Origin: an uncultured Planctomycetota bacterium
GTDB taxonomy: Bacteria > Planctomycetota > Phycisphaerae > Phycisphaerales > UBA5793
DNA: 64,000 bases
Direction: 5' to 3'
NCBI GenBank assembly: GCA_900696685.1
Contig: CAADHA010000157.1
Span: 1-64,000 of the forward strand
Of this stretch, positions 3,930 to 10,105 are shown piece after piece (positions within the stretch are counted from its first letter, which is position 1; every line of letters begins with the position of its first letter). The notes under the pieces were generated by a model, which was given only the letters and a program-made list of their open reading frames with translations, was not told the origin of the DNA and made no database searches. The position numbers were made by a program, and so were the translations under genes.

Positions 3930-5402
3930 TCAGCATGTGTTCGCCGCCGGCTGAGCAGGCGATCGCCGAGTCGCGTCGAACCGTTCCCGAACCGCGGTTA
4001 CGATCCGCTCCAGCCTCATCCCGCGTGAGCCTTTGACCAGCACGCGATCCGTCTCGCGCAGGAGACGGACGAGGTCGGCGATGGCCGCGTCGTCGAGATC
4101 CTCAGCGTAATGAACGTCGATGCGGGAATCCCCCGCCAGCGCCTCCAGCGCTGAACGCATGAGCGGTCCGACGAGGATCGCGAGCCCCGGCGGAGCGATT
4201 CCGTCCGATTCCTCGAGCAGTTCAGCCGCGATTTCAGCATGCGCTGCTTCGCTCAGGCCGCCCAGTTCGAGCATGTCGCCGAGGATGACGACGGCGCGGC
4301 CGCCTCCATCGGCCGCGAGTTGGCGGAAGGTGCGGATCGACGCCTTCATCGACTCGGGATTGGCGTTGTAGGAGTCGTCGAAGAGTTCGAGGCTCCCGAG
4401 GCGATGGCGGGTGAAGCGCATCTCCGGCGCCTCGACCTTGAGCAGGCCGGCCTGAATCTCGGCATCGGTGAAGCCGCAGCGCCGGCCGACGGCGATGGCC
4501 GCCGCCGCGTTCGAGGCATGATGCTGGCCATAGAGCGGCAGGCGCCACTGTGTGCGGTCGTTGAGCGTGAAGGTCGTGCCCTTGCTCGCCACTGCGCAAT
4601 GACAGATACGCAAGTCGGCGTCCGTGGAGAAGCCGAACGTGATGCCGCGTTCCATCGGCTCGATGTGCGGAAGGATGGCCGGCTCGTCGATCGAGACGGC
4701 CGCCCAGCCGCCGTGCGCCATGGCGCGGAGGATGGCTGTCTTTTCGCTCGCGACACCTTCGATCGAGCCGAGACCCTCGAGATGGACGCGGCCGATGCTC
4801 GTGATGACGGCGATGTCCGGCTGGACGATGGCGGTGAGGTCGGCGATCTCGCCGGGGTGGTTGGTGCCGACCTCGCATATGACGTACTGGTCGCGCGGCC
4901 CGGCGGCGAGGATGGTCAACGGAACGCCGACGTGGTTGTTGAAACTCTTCGGACTTCCCGAGACGCGGAAGCGCTGACCGAGCACCGCCAGGAGCATCTG
5001 CTTGGTCGTCGTCTTGCCGCTGGAACCGGTGACGGCGATGAACTTCGTCAGGCCCAGGTGCCGCCGGTAGGCCGACGCGAGGCGCCCGAGCGCCTTGAGC
5101 GTGTCCTCGACGAGCAGGACATGCAGGCCGGCGGGCCAGTGGTTCATCGCCTCCGGCGCCCGGTGGAGGATGAGCATGGCAGCGCCTCGCCGCACCGCTT
5201 CGTCGAGATGGTCGTGTCCGTCGAACCGCTCGCCGCGCAGCGCCAGGAACACCTGTCGCGGCGCGAGCATTCGAGAGTCGGTGCCCACGCCTTCAGGCTC
5301 AGGCGCCGGCGCGGCACTCTCGACGGGGCGCTTCAGCCAGCGCCCGCCGCCTGCCGCAGCACGCAGCGAGTCAGGATGCCAGAACGAAGCGGCTCCGGTC
5401 AC
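3930..5402 (-). CDS. murF: UDP-MurNAc-tripeptide:D-alanyl-D-alanine ligase
   Basis: MurF adds D-Ala-D-Ala to UDP-MurNAc-tripeptide, finishing the cytoplasmic precursor that MraY uses. The 490-residue protein shows an N-terminal Mur ligase domain (GVGTDSRMLAPRQVFLALRG), the ATP-binding loop AVTGSSGKTTTKQML near residue 124, the central domain with NNHVGVPLT near 155 and EVGTNHPGEI near 177, and the C-terminal ligase domain with DDSYNANPESMKA near 321. It begins with GTG, and its GTGA start overlaps the murE stop by four bases, implying translational coupling. Length fits the family, with a short N-terminal extension. Confidence 0.95.
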   Translation of the reverse strand: MTGAASFWHPDSLRAAAGGGRWLKRPVESAAPAPEPEGVGTDSRMLAPRQVFLALRGERFDGHDHLDEAVRRGAAMLILHRAPEAMNHWPAGLHVLLVEDTLKALGRLASAYRRHLGLTKFIAVTGSSGKTTTKQMLLAVLGQRFRVSGSPKSFNNHVGVPLTILAAGPRDQYVICEVGTNHPGEIADLTAIVQPDIAVITSIGRVHLEGLGSIEGVASEKTAILRAMAHGGWAAVSIDEPAILPHIEPMERGITFGFSTDADLRICHCAVASKGTTFTLNDRTQWRLPLYGQHHASNAAAAIAVGRRCGFTDAEIQAGLLKVEAPEMRFTRHRLGSLELFDDSYNANPESMKASIRTFRQLAADGGGRAVVILGDMLELGGLSEAAHAEIAAELLEESDGIAPPGLAILVGPLMRSALEALAGDSRIDVHYAEDLDDAAIADLVRLLRETDRVLVKGSRGMRLERIVTAVRERFDATRRSPAQPAANTC

Positions 5403-6943
5403 GCGGCACTCACTTGCGGCTCGGGGATGCGCCCGAACCTCGCTTCAAGCGTCGCCTGCGCGATGAGGCGGTCGTTGAAGGGGTACTTTCTGGTCCCGAT
5501 GATCTGGTAGTTCTCGTGTCCCTTTCCGGCGATCACGATGACGTCATTGGCCCGGGCCTCGGCGATGCATTTCACGATCGCCGCCTTGCGATCGACCTCG
5601 GTCGTCACTTCCGCAGTCGTTCCTTCCGGCACGCCGGCGAGTATCTGCTGGACGATCGACTCGGGGTCTTCGGTGCGCGGATTGTCGCTGGTGATGAAGA
5701 CGCGCTGGGCGAGTGTGCAGGCGACGGCGGCCATGCGCGGCCGCTTGGTGCGGTCGCGGTCGCCCCCGCATCCGAAGACGACGGTGAGGCGCCCGCCTTC
5801 GGGTACGACGGGGCCTGCGGCGCGCAGCACGTTGGCCAGCGCATCATCGGTGTGGGCGTAATCGACGAAGACGGCGAAGGGCGCCAGCGGATGATGCACC
5901 GGTTCGAGCCGCCCCGGCGGGGCCGCGCAGCGTGCGAGCGACTCCGCCAGGCCGTCGCATGGAACGCCGCACCAGGCCGCAACGCACGCGGCCTGCAGCG
6001 CGTTGCTCACGTTGTGGCGCCCGATGAGCGGCAGATCCACTTCGAAGACGCCCCACGGCCCCGTGAACTGCGCCGCCGTGGATGTCGGTCCGAGGCGGGT
6101 GATCGCCGCGCTCGCCTCCCCCTGTGCCGGCGTGTGTGCATCGCTGATGCGCGTCAGCCGAATCGGCGCGCGGCACGCGGCTCGCATCACCTCTGCAGAG
6201 GGGTCCTCCGCGTTGATGATCGCAAGCCCGCCCGGCGGGAGTGCGGCGAAGAGACGCGCCTTGGCCGCCGCATAGGCCTGCATTGTGCTGTGGTAATCGA
6301 GGTGGTCGCCGGAGAGATTCGTGAACAGGCCCACGTCGAACTCCAGGCCCTCCGTCCGCCCCTGGTCCAGGGCGTGGCTTGACACCTCCATGACAACCTG
6401 CGAGCAGCCGTTGGCCACCATGCGCGCCAGCGTGCGGCTGAGGTCGATGGCCGAGGGCGTCGTGAGGTCCGAGGGCAGGCGCGACTTGCGGTCGTCAACG
6501 AACACGGTGCCGATCAGTCCGCATGACCAGCCGGCGCCGAGGAGCAGTTGCTGTATGAGGTGGGACGTGGTCGTTTTGCCGTTCGTGCCGGTGATGCCGA
6601 TGAGTGTTACGCTGTTGGAGGGAGAGCCGAAGAACGCTTCAGCCGTCGCAGCCACAACTCGGTGGAAGGGACGTGCTGCGCCGGCCGGGCACAGAAGCGT
6701 TGCGCTACCGGCGTCAACCGTTTCATCTTCCGCGAGAATGGCCGTGGCCCCCCGCGCGATAGCGTCAGCGACGAATTCCCGCCCGTCCATCTTTGAGCCG
6801 CGGCGTGCCACGAAGAGACTCCCCGGTGTGGCCTGCCGGCTGTCCTCCGTGATATCCGTCAGCCTTCGGTCTGCCGCGCCGCTTGCCAGGCGCAGACCCG
6901 CCTCTTCCATCAGACGCCCCAGTTCGACGTTCATGCGCACCAC
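5399..6943 (-). CDS. murE: UDP-MurNAc-L-Ala-D-Glu:meso-diaminopimelate ligase
   Basis: MurE adds the third stem-peptide residue. The 514-residue product has the ATP loop GITGTNGKTTTSHL near residue 114, the carbamylated-lysine region and the C-terminal SDNPRTEDPESI motif near 422. The DNPR motif is the known signature for meso-diaminopimelate rather than lysine, so the organism should make DAP-type peptidoglycan. Two GTG codons (6943, 6940) and an ATG (6934) lie just after an AAGGAGG sequence; the spacing best suits 6940 or 6943. It follows thrS by 91 bases and is coupled to murF. Confidence 0.95.
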   Translation of the reverse strand: MVRMNVELGRLMEEAGLRLASGAADRRLTDITEDSRQATPGSLFVARRGSKMDGREFVADAIARGATAILAEDETVDAGSATLLCPAGAARPFHRVVAATAEAFFGSPSNSVTLIGITGTNGKTTTSHLIQQLLLGAGWSCGLIGTVFVDDRKSRLPSDLTTPSAIDLSRTLARMVANGCSQVVMEVSSHALDQGRTEGLEFDVGLFTNLSGDHLDYHSTMQAYAAAKARLFAALPPGGLAIINAEDPSAEVMRAACRAPIRLTRISDAHTPAQGEASAAITRLGPTSTAAQFTGPWGVFEVDLPLIGRHNVSNALQAACVAAWCGVPCDGLAESLARCAAPPGRLEPVHHPLAPFAVFVDYAHTDDALANVLRAAGPVVPEGGRLTVVFGCGGDRDRTKRPRMAAVACTLAQRVFITSDNPRTEDPESIVQQILAGVPEGTTAEVTTEVDRKAAIVKCIAEARANDVIVIAGKGHENYQIIGTRKYPFNDRLIAQATLEARFGRIPEPQVSAA

Positions 6944-7034
6944 CTGGCCTCCTTGGCGAAGGATATCGTCGAACGCGGGACCGAGGATTCAGAATTGCGG
7001 CCGGCGAAGCAGTGAAGCAAGCGGCCTCGGGTGC

Positions 7035-9116
<2,082 letters not shown>

Positions 9117-9212
9117 GTCCGTTTCCTTCAACGTCGTTCATCCGACCACCCTCAAAGCCCCCGGATTTCCCGGGCCGAGGACGAATCATCCCATCAGGTG
9201 CCAAAACCAACA

Positions 9213-9239
9213 ACGCACGGCTCATAATCGGCCGTGCGT
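9213..9239 (-). terminator. Attenuator terminator hairpin upstream of thrS
   Basis: On the minus strand ACGCACGGC and GCCGTGCGT form a perfect nine-base-pair stem around a nine-base loop, followed by the T-rich stretch TTGTTGGTTTT. It lies 32 bases after the stop of the threonine-rich leader peptide and 96 bases before the thrS ATG. The tail is not an uninterrupted T run, so its strength is uncertain. Confidence 0.7.
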
Positions 9240-9279
9240 CTCTCCTTCCATCGCTGAGCGCACCAACCGATCACGGCCG
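9229..9279 (-). promoter_or_regulatory. Predicted antiterminator pairing for thrS attenuation
   Basis: The last leader-peptide codons contain CGGCCGTG (minus strand, 9279-9272). This is exactly complementary to CACGGCCG (9236-9229), which forms part of the left arm and loop of the terminator hairpin. The two structures exclude each other. If a ribosome stalls at the threonine codons, the leader segment stays free and can pair with the terminator arm, allowing read-through. If the ribosome reaches the stop codon it covers that segment and the terminator forms. The eight-base pairing is seen in the sequence; the mechanism is inferred from classical amino-acid operon attenuation. Confidence 0.6.
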
Positions 9280-9330
9280 CGTGGTCGCGGTCGTCGTCCG
9301 GGTCGTCGTGGCGGTGCGGGTCTGCTGCAT
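9271..9330 (-). CDS. Threonine-rich leader peptide of thrS
   Basis: A 19-residue reading frame, MQQTRTATTTRTTTATTRP, begins at ATG 22 bases after the lspA stop codon and ends with TGA. Ten of 19 codons are threonine (ACC or ACG), in runs of three, three and two. It lies directly upstream of the gene for threonyl-tRNA synthetase and is followed by a terminator-type hairpin, the same layout as the thr operon leader of enteric bacteria. The upstream ribosome-binding site is weak. Because lspA precedes it in the same direction, the attenuator may sit inside a longer transcript and also affect murE, murF and mraY. Chance is a poor explanation for this composition at this site. Confidence 0.82.
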   Translation of the reverse strand: MQQTRTATTTRTTTATTRP

Positions 9331-9352
9331 GCTGAACAAGCCTAGTCGCTCT

Positions 9353-10105
9353 TCACGGCGGGTCAATCGGCCGAACCGCGCCTGCGGTTGAGGCCTGGGC
9401 GGATGCGTCGGGCGCACCGGCCGGCTCTATCCGCCGGTTCATCCGCACCATCAGCAGCCCGATCCCGCTCAGGAGCAGGACATCGGCGACATTGAAGACC
9501 CACGGGAAGACTTCCGAGTTGCCGCCCGGCCAGGTCCAGTTCAGGGGCAGGTGGACATCGGGAAAGATCTTGAGAAAGTCGCGGACCGCCCCGAACATGA
9601 TGCGGTCGAAGAGGTTTCCGAGCGCGCCCGCGAGGATGAAGCCGATCGCCACGTGCGCCAGTCGGTCTCGTGCGCGCGTCCGCGAGGCAAAGACATAGAA
9701 GCCGACGGCCACGGCCGCAACGGTGAACACCACGAAAAAGATCCGCTGCCCGGGACCGATTCCGAACACCGCTCCGCGGTTGAGAACCAGGTGCAGGGCC
9801 AGCACGCCGGGGATGGCGCTGCGGTGCGCATCCGGGGGCGGATGCCAGTTCGTGTTGCCGAGAATCTCTTCGCGGTCAAGCACGACGGGCGCATCGCCGA
9901 TCAGGCGGAAGGCTGCACTCTTCGAGGCGAGATCGATGCACAGGCCGATGAGCAGGACGCTCAGGAGCAGGAGCCAGGACGGCATCGACCTCCCGGCAGG
10001 CTGTGCGGGCCGTTGCTCGAGTTGCGCCTCCACCATTGCGCCGCTGTGATTCATCGGGGTCAATGGTAGGAGCCGCCCGCGCGATGTACCGCATTTGCAC
10101 TCCAC
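9353..10105 (-). CDS. lspA: Lipoprotein signal peptidase (signal peptidase II)
   Basis: LspA cleaves lipoprotein signal peptides after lipidation. The 250-residue product has four membrane segments and the family motifs LNRGAVFGIG near residue 109, GALGNLFDRI near 160 and the FNVADVLLL motif near 207; the two catalytic aspartates would be those of LFDR and NVAD. It is longer than the usual 160-170 residues because of an N-terminal extension of about 40 residues and an Ala-rich tail. A start at an internal ATG (MNHSGAMVEAQ, residue 18) is equally possible. It follows the DksA-like gene and precedes the thrS leader. Confidence 0.93.
   Translation of the reverse strand: MECKCGTSRGRLLPLTPMNHSGAMVEAQLEQRPAQPAGRSMPSWLLLLSVLLIGLCIDLASKSAAFRLIGDAPVVLDREEILGNTNWHPPPDAHRSAIPGVLALHLVLNRGAVFGIGPGQRIFFVVFTVAAVAVGFYVFASRTRARDRLAHVAIGFILAGALGNLFDRIMFGAVRDFLKIFPDVHLPLNWTWPGGNSEVFPWVFNVADVLLLSGIGLLMVRMNRRIEPAGAPDASAQASTAGAVRPIDPP

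Follow-up and report, generated by a model that had tools for sequence, protein, structure and literature searches.

The stretch of DNA directly upstream of thrS, the gene for threonyl-tRNA synthetase, in the window (the whole 64,000-nt piece of planctomycete DNA that was analysed) can be read with high confidence, on comparative sequence evidence, as a ribosome-mediated (leader-peptide) transcription attenuator of that gene. Ribosome-driven switches of this kind have long been known from the amino-acid operons of E. coli, and planctomycetes that carry the leader very likely sense threonine starvation by a switch of the same kind. The computed support consists of a conserved open reading frame, its threonine content and its position, two mutually exclusive covarying helices, and a folding switch in the window and about half of its relatives. 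The architecture of ribosome-mediated attenuation had already been proposed in a first-pass annotation; the recurring threonine frame, the covarying helices and the folding switch in the window now support it.

On the minus strand, the gene order is an lspA-like gene (presumably so, named from its sequence) ending at 9353, the leader ORF after a gap of 22 nt, a hairpin, a T-rich tail, and thrS with its ATG at 9116 (Table 1). That a threonyl-tRNA synthetase gene lies directly downstream of the leader, as first annotated, is confirmed by its TIGR00418 match, and translation of 9330-9271 likewise returns the annotated frame of 19 residues with 10 threonine codons. The window contains 454 ATG-initiated ORFs of 6-45 aa with distinct stops, 234 on the plus strand and 220 on the minus strand; by threonine score (5.26; runner-up, 2.45) the leader frame ranks first among them. 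The motif ACN ACN ACN NNN ACN ACN ACN has five copies genome-wide, the leader included; the stop-to-stop stretch in the threonine frame spans 51 residues at the leader and 93-422 residues at the other four copies.

Table 1. The thrS leader, its predicted signals and the adjoining genes (window positions)
Feature	Position	Strand	Basis and remarks
-35-like box TTGACC, within the final codons of lspA-like gene	9361..9366	-	sequence
-10-like box TAGGCT, 8 nt before leader ATG	9339..9344	-	sequence
Leader ORF MQQTRTATTTRTTTATTRP (then stop), 10/19 residues Thr	9271..9330	-	translation; one of 44 kept leaders from 146 regions
Element 1, CGCACC (partner GGTGCG at 9264-9259)	9313..9318	-	pairing p 0.29 in the window's genome alone; class tested as a group
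Element 2, candidate antiterminator upstream strand: leader end and post-stop TCGGTTGGTGCG	9259..9279	-	pairing, folding, covariation
Element 3, putative terminator 5' arm and loop start, also antiterminator downstream strand	9228..9240	-	pairing, covariation
Element 4, putative terminator 3' arm GCCGTGCGTT	9212..9221	-	sequence, covariation
T-rich tail GTTGGTTTTGG, interrupted	9201..9211	-	sequence
thrS, threonyl-tRNA synthetase, putative regulated gene	7035..9116	-	TIGR00418 629 bits, above cut-off; translation
murE-like gene, 91-nt gap after thrS, co-regulation doubtful	5399..6943	-	sequence and place

The frame recurs among relatives. A thrS search of 301 genomes of the order matched 289, and 146 upstream regions were examined, all from the best-scoring part of those matches, a choice that favours thrS genes closest to the window's; matches near a contig edge (G155, G192, G262, G272) were left out. 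A short threonine-rich ORF lies upstream of thrS in 45 of these 146 regions, as the first-pass annotation had anticipated for related genomes. In the first 129 regions (17 more were added to make up the 146) the counts of such ORFs are 42 for the forward strand, 2 for the reverse and 1-6 across 20 dinucleotide shuffles; tightening the filter (ATG start, at least 5 threonines, a run of at least 3) brings them to 34, 0 and 0-1, respectively. Dropping G280, which has a TTG start and no fitting terminator, yields 44 kept leaders in 24 genera: 5/6 regions in the window's family, f1, 28/51 in f2, 9/84 in f3, 1/1 in f4, 0/2 in f5 and 1/2 in f6. Examples are MNRTATTTWTTTATTTRP, MARTTTTTTTTQTASCG, MNQNITTTTTTTTTATSPD and MNLRTTATTTTTTTTRRG, and most of the leaders lie 100-220 nt before the gene. 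Together they hold 340 threonines among 798 codons (156 ACC, 131 ACG, 36 ACT and 17 ACA). Neighbouring threonine codons are identical at a frequency of 0.37, exactly as under independent choice (0.37); thus it is the amino acid that appears to be selected, and not a DNA or trinucleotide repeat.

Relatives that lack the frame or the hairpin, which the annotation had named as evidence against its own reading, do exist: they account for 101 of the 146 regions, about half of which have thrS in another context. Of the 102 regions that yielded no kept leader, 52 have a C-terminal motif resembling that of NrdR upstream on the same strand (the name, given from this motif, is our assumption), whereas the 44 with a leader have none; such a gene end is seen in many f3 genomes. 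No leader was detected in G001, the sole genome of the other genus in f1. In two genomes of genus g63, G091 (locus L306) and G279, a hairpin without a threonine frame is located upstream of thrS, with a promoter-like CATAGGAT directly 3' of it; this hairpin looks like a relic of an attenuator.

The leaders also share a promoter-like arrangement. In the window's genus, the best -35/-10 pairs of the five genomes with a leader all have a spacer of 16 nt, and 14 of the 15 leaders in f1, f3 and f4 combine their -10 box with TTGAC- at that spacing. Over the whole set, 37/44 leaders have their best -10 box ending 5-10 nt upstream of the ATG; among 767 random positions, 13% have a -10 box at such a distance and 0.8% have one at that distance with a like score. 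A general promoter scan of 6800-9500, which applies a stricter rule, called no promoter. Placement of the -10 box 5-10 nt before the ATG predicts that the leader mRNA starts at or beside the AUG, and it is thus probably almost leaderless.

The hairpin in the window, GACGCACGGC-loop-GCCGTGCGTT at 9240-9212, comprises 10 pairs, one of them G-U. It had been described as a perfect terminator-like hairpin; the hairpin stands, the perfection does not, for the T-run of the tail is interrupted. In 6800-9500 a simple scan called no terminator, and the automatic first-pass finder chose a different hairpin in the window's genome, one of three (with G221 and G295) in which the terminator arms were set by hand for this reason. 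Folded in its entirety, the leader region is no more stable than shuffled sequence (z = -1.03); the signal lies in comparison and not in stability. The 44 leaders were selected by ORF and not by structure, apart from the dropping of G280, and in all of them the terminator stem starts 26-37 nt past the leader stop. Automatic terminator scores of at least 30 are reached in 35 of 45 leader regions, in 0-2 of 45 in each of ten shuffles, and in 2 of 100 regions that lack the ORF; a good T-run at the hairpin is seen in many relatives.

Complementarity to the 5' arm of the terminator is greatest for the 13-nt segment that starts where the stop codon ends (-14.4 kcal/mol); it falls to about -5 to -6 kcal/mol further up the leader and to -3 to -5 kcal/mol downstream (from 9 nt on). 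This placement modifies the original proposal, in which the last codons of the leader supplied the pairing. The 8 nt then identified, CGGCCGTG (9279-9272), are indeed exactly complementary to CACGGCCG (9236-9229), but this is not a conserved pairing: of the five genomes of the genus with a leader, two, G004 and G005, end theirs in CGGCGGTAA, which breaks it. The antiterminator helix that is kept in all five joins the post-stop UCGGYUG to CGGCCGA; the CGCACC/GGTGCG pair of elements 1 and 2 is also present in all five.

Taken one genome at a time, helix 2:3 reaches p < 0.05 in 14 and helix 1:2 in 6 of the 44 leaders; the p-values are weak because GC content is high. Since they are too weak to decide, grouped tests with partner swapping were used, with one leader per genus (24). 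Helix 2:3 then averages -15.1; mononucleotide shuffles give -10.7 (sd 0.58) and partners exchanged among genera -12.9 (sd 0.47), with 0/300 in each case. The exchange control shows that elements 2 and 3 have changed in step from one genus to another. Helix 1:2, which pairs the start of the leader with the post-stop region, gives -14.8 against -11.7 for shuffles and -11.6 for swapped partners (0/300 each), and helix 3:4 gives -19.0 against -12.3 for swapped partners (0/300). Covariation was counted on a plain MAFFT alignment. For 2:3, 76.6% of cells are paired, with a score of 0.239; six slid versions of the helix yield 24.4-50.4% and 0.039-0.105. Three of the five measures (paired cells, cells with changes on both sides, score) exceed column shuffles (0/500); the other two, a count of 5 pairs with two-sided changes (75/500) and one of 14 further pair types (139/500), do not. 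For 3:4, 92.1% of cells are paired, two-sided changes occur in 9 of 10 pairs, and all five covariation measures lie above all 500 column shuffles. Both of the mutually exclusive predicted helices, 2:3 and 3:4, covary by this count, and with 1:2 surpassing its controls as a group, the candidate elements have the textbook attenuator layout; the covarying alternative hairpins that the first-pass annotation called for are thus in evidence.

The switch itself was modelled by equilibrium folding in which the nucleotides under a ribosome are kept unpaired. In the window, the terminator has a probability of 0.00 when the first or middle threonine codon is occupied, 0.98 with the ribosome at the last and 0.96 at the stop, which predicts read-through at early threonine codons and termination at the stop. 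Without a ribosome it is 0.23, the antiterminator being preferred (the relatives' mean is 0.77), so that the 1:2 protector looks weak in the window. Mean probabilities for the 44 leaders are 0.47 at the first threonine codon, 0.46 at the middle one, 0.74 at the last, 0.95 at the stop and 0.77 without a ribosome. With the ribosome at the middle threonine codon the terminator falls below 0.5 in 23/44 leaders (1-4/44 in ten spacer shuffles) and, counted per genus, in 9/24 (0-3 with shuffled spacer); with the ribosome at the stop it does so in 0/44. The terminator is kept (at least 0.5) at the middle codon in the other 21 of 44, and this lack of an equilibrium switch in about half of the set is the main weakness of the folding evidence. 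When the RNA is folded only as far as the terminator loop, the state during transcription before arm 4 has been made, arm 3 is mostly paired upstream in 43/44 leaders with a stalled ribosome and in 9/44 with the ribosome at the stop. From the masked and partial folds, the early threonine codons of the leader should be the sensors.

These features can be assembled into a sequence of events, in which translation of the leader, termination in vivo and the response to charged Thr-tRNA are steps that we infer. Transcription would start on the leader ATG or only a few bases from it, as the -10 box suggests, and a ribosome would translate the threonine run. With charged Thr-tRNA at hand, it would proceed to the stop codon and cover the post-stop element, allowing arms 3 and 4 to form the terminator and turning thrS off. 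When charged Thr-tRNA is short, it would stall on the early threonine codons and leave element 2 free to pair with arm 3 once the latter is made; no terminator would form and thrS would be transcribed. Helix 1:2, between the start of the leader and element 2, would favour termination when no ribosome is present.

A leader peptide might also act through its translation in some other way, by Rho-dependent polarity or by an effect on mRNA stability, with the hairpin secondary. The interrupted T-run in the window's own genome and the leaders that do not switch in the equilibrium fold lean in this direction; against it, the covarying 2:3 helix would then have no role, and many relatives possess good T-runs. 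Such a mode of action is very unlikely. Slightly less probable still is coincidence, a terminator of the upstream lspA-like gene lying next to a chance ORF in GC-rich DNA, for which the short distance from the end of that gene to the leader and the GC-limited complementarity within single genomes would speak. It is largely refuted by the comparative result: among 110 loci an lspA match is nearby only in f1, the leader-hairpin pair extends through 24 genera, and neither the reverse strand nor shuffles nor swapped partners reproduce it.

T-box elements and the ThrRS-binding operator of E. coli are known modes of thrS control, and that one of them governs this gene, with the ORF incidental, is the least probable reading: an Rfam search of the window returned no family at gathering score, the T-box covariance model matched neither there nor at 9050-9400 up to E = 10, where only Thr_leader appears, and the conserved signal consists of threonine codons and a terminator, mostly 100-220 nt before the gene.

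The E. coli-type threonine leader shares a short threonine-rich leader peptide, a terminator and an alternative antiterminator with the window's element. Unlike that leader, which belongs to threonine biosynthesis genes, the window's element adjoins thrS and is probably almost leaderless; its leader also holds no isoleucine codons. The model of the threonine operon leader (Thr_leader, RF00506) aligns over its full length to the window's region, with 20.1 bits (E 0.16). This is below its gathering score of 55 bits, and the window's element is for that reason not filed as a member of the family, though it would work like one.

A further parallel is in Streptomyces lividans, for which a thrL-thrS attenuator has been reported from RNA-seq (PMC8079986). 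The first-pass annotation, which gave mRNA binding in E. coli and T-box elements as the other controls of thrS, was correct as far as it went and incomplete in this respect. Compared by description, the two elements have in common a leader ORF before thrS and a leaderless transcript; thrL differs in having only 2 threonines in 18 residues and one hairpin with no U-rich stretch, termination being called "not clear" (PMC8079986). Other aminoacyl-tRNA synthetase genes of Streptomyces, leuS and trpS, are described as subject to classical attenuation, for other amino acids and in another phylum, in a paper which states that no conserved RNA regulatory structure is seen upstream of threonine operons in Actinobacteria (PMC1262725). 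A histidine-rich leader upstream of hisS paralogues in bacilli is, as the window's element would be, a case of synthetase attenuation outside Proteobacteria and Actinobacteria, concerning histidine and Firmicutes; that 2010 paper has it that no such system was known outside those two phyla before its own case (PMC2965389). For Planctomycetes, short leader genes have been counted by distance from the gene, in a main text that is without thrS (PMC4833913), and the passages of PMC2330054 on this subject show no thrS leader. No report of a planctomycete thrS attenuator was found among openly licensed PMC papers, in agreement with the annotation's view that it was undescribed; within that literature, the putative threonine leader family is well supported by comparison in a phylum without a reported case.

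Beyond the window's order the evidence becomes more varied. A survey of the class took in 75 of 80 genomes, 64 of them from families outside the order and 11 from f5 and f6, two families of the order that had been under-sampled; left out were G394 (no match) and G306, G403, G430 and G531 (no usable thrS start). A short threonine-rich ORF lies upstream of thrS in 17/75 (reverse strand, 3/75), and two of these matches, in G406 and G451, look like chance. In G009 (f5), G022, G030 and G045 (f6) and G408 (f11), a hairpin with a T-run follows 28-35 nt past the stop. Very short threonine leaders such as MNTTTTTTTTC and MLTTTATTTFA (each ending at a stop codon) precede thrS in f15 (7/8 genomes), f17 and f25; their downstream fold differs and is less clear, and the same 2:3 architecture is not claimed for them. 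The loci are L372, L373, L374, L366, L376, L323 and L325 in f15, where the last residue is Cys or Ala in all seven, L346 and L344 in f17, and L371 in f25. R1, a covariance model built on the stretch from the stop codon to the terminator, proved unspecific when searched against 298 genomes of the class, of which 216 match at E 0.05, and was rejected as a counting tool. Of the 30 loci it returned, the 17 away from known leaders were examined: 15 resemble ordinary gene-end terminators or chance, the one in G030 is the threonine leader before thrS, and the one in G091 is the frameless hairpin before thrS.

Simple codon filters for leaders of other synthetases found none for pheS (9 genomes), hisS (9) or trpS (13) and leucine-rich leaders before leuS in 3 of 16 genomes, all in f3. 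These lie about 190-260 nt upstream of the leuS match at L404 (G174), L411 (G264) and L257 (G274), with the frame MCHKVIVISPLLLLLLSG once and LRPLLLGPTTG twice, each ended by a stop and then followed by a GC hairpin and a T-rich tail; they are a possible second synthetase attenuator in the order. Two further upstream regions were noted. About 100-200 nt before the hisS match in five genomes of the window's genus (L268-L272), a AATAATGTACCTGATTT-like block is common to all, with no histidine-rich frame. At L300 (G046), a terminator-like hairpin stands about 150 nt before a gene that we take from its sequence to be ileS; it may be a gene-end terminator.

A link between wall synthesis and threonine supply had also been suggested, because mur genes follow thrS in the window. 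The suggestion has weakened. The gene after thrS, which from its sequence and place is presumably murE, occupies that position in the six genomes of f1 and in none of the other loci tested (110 loci, of which 58 exceed 7 kb), and co-regulation of mur genes as a general feature was rejected on this ground. The thrS-murE gap (6944-7034) contains the promoter-like GATATCCTT, also present in three relatives (L006-L008), which looks like a promoter for murE; the G001 locus differs at this gap. A threonine-wall link is possible in f1 and is not supported as a function.

The more general proposition is that threonine leader attenuation of thrS is an old, class-wide planctomycete mode of control, with near-leaderless ORFs, downstream folds rebuilt family by family and a sister system at leuS; the balance tips slightly in its favour. 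If it is true, leader-peptide attenuation extends to a phylum for which no report was found among openly licensed PMC papers, and Planctomycetota would join the phyla with comparative support for it. RNA polymerase would then start at the ATG, and 70S ribosomes would initiate right at the emerging 5' end of the transcript, a leader mRNA seemingly with almost no 5' UTR. The 44 leaders are natural variants with clear covariation, and the element is a possible in vivo reporter of Thr-tRNA charging. The cell plan of planctomycetes has long been debated; because attenuation by a stalled ribosome needs coupling of transcription with translation, a working case would be direct evidence of such coupling in Planctomycetota.
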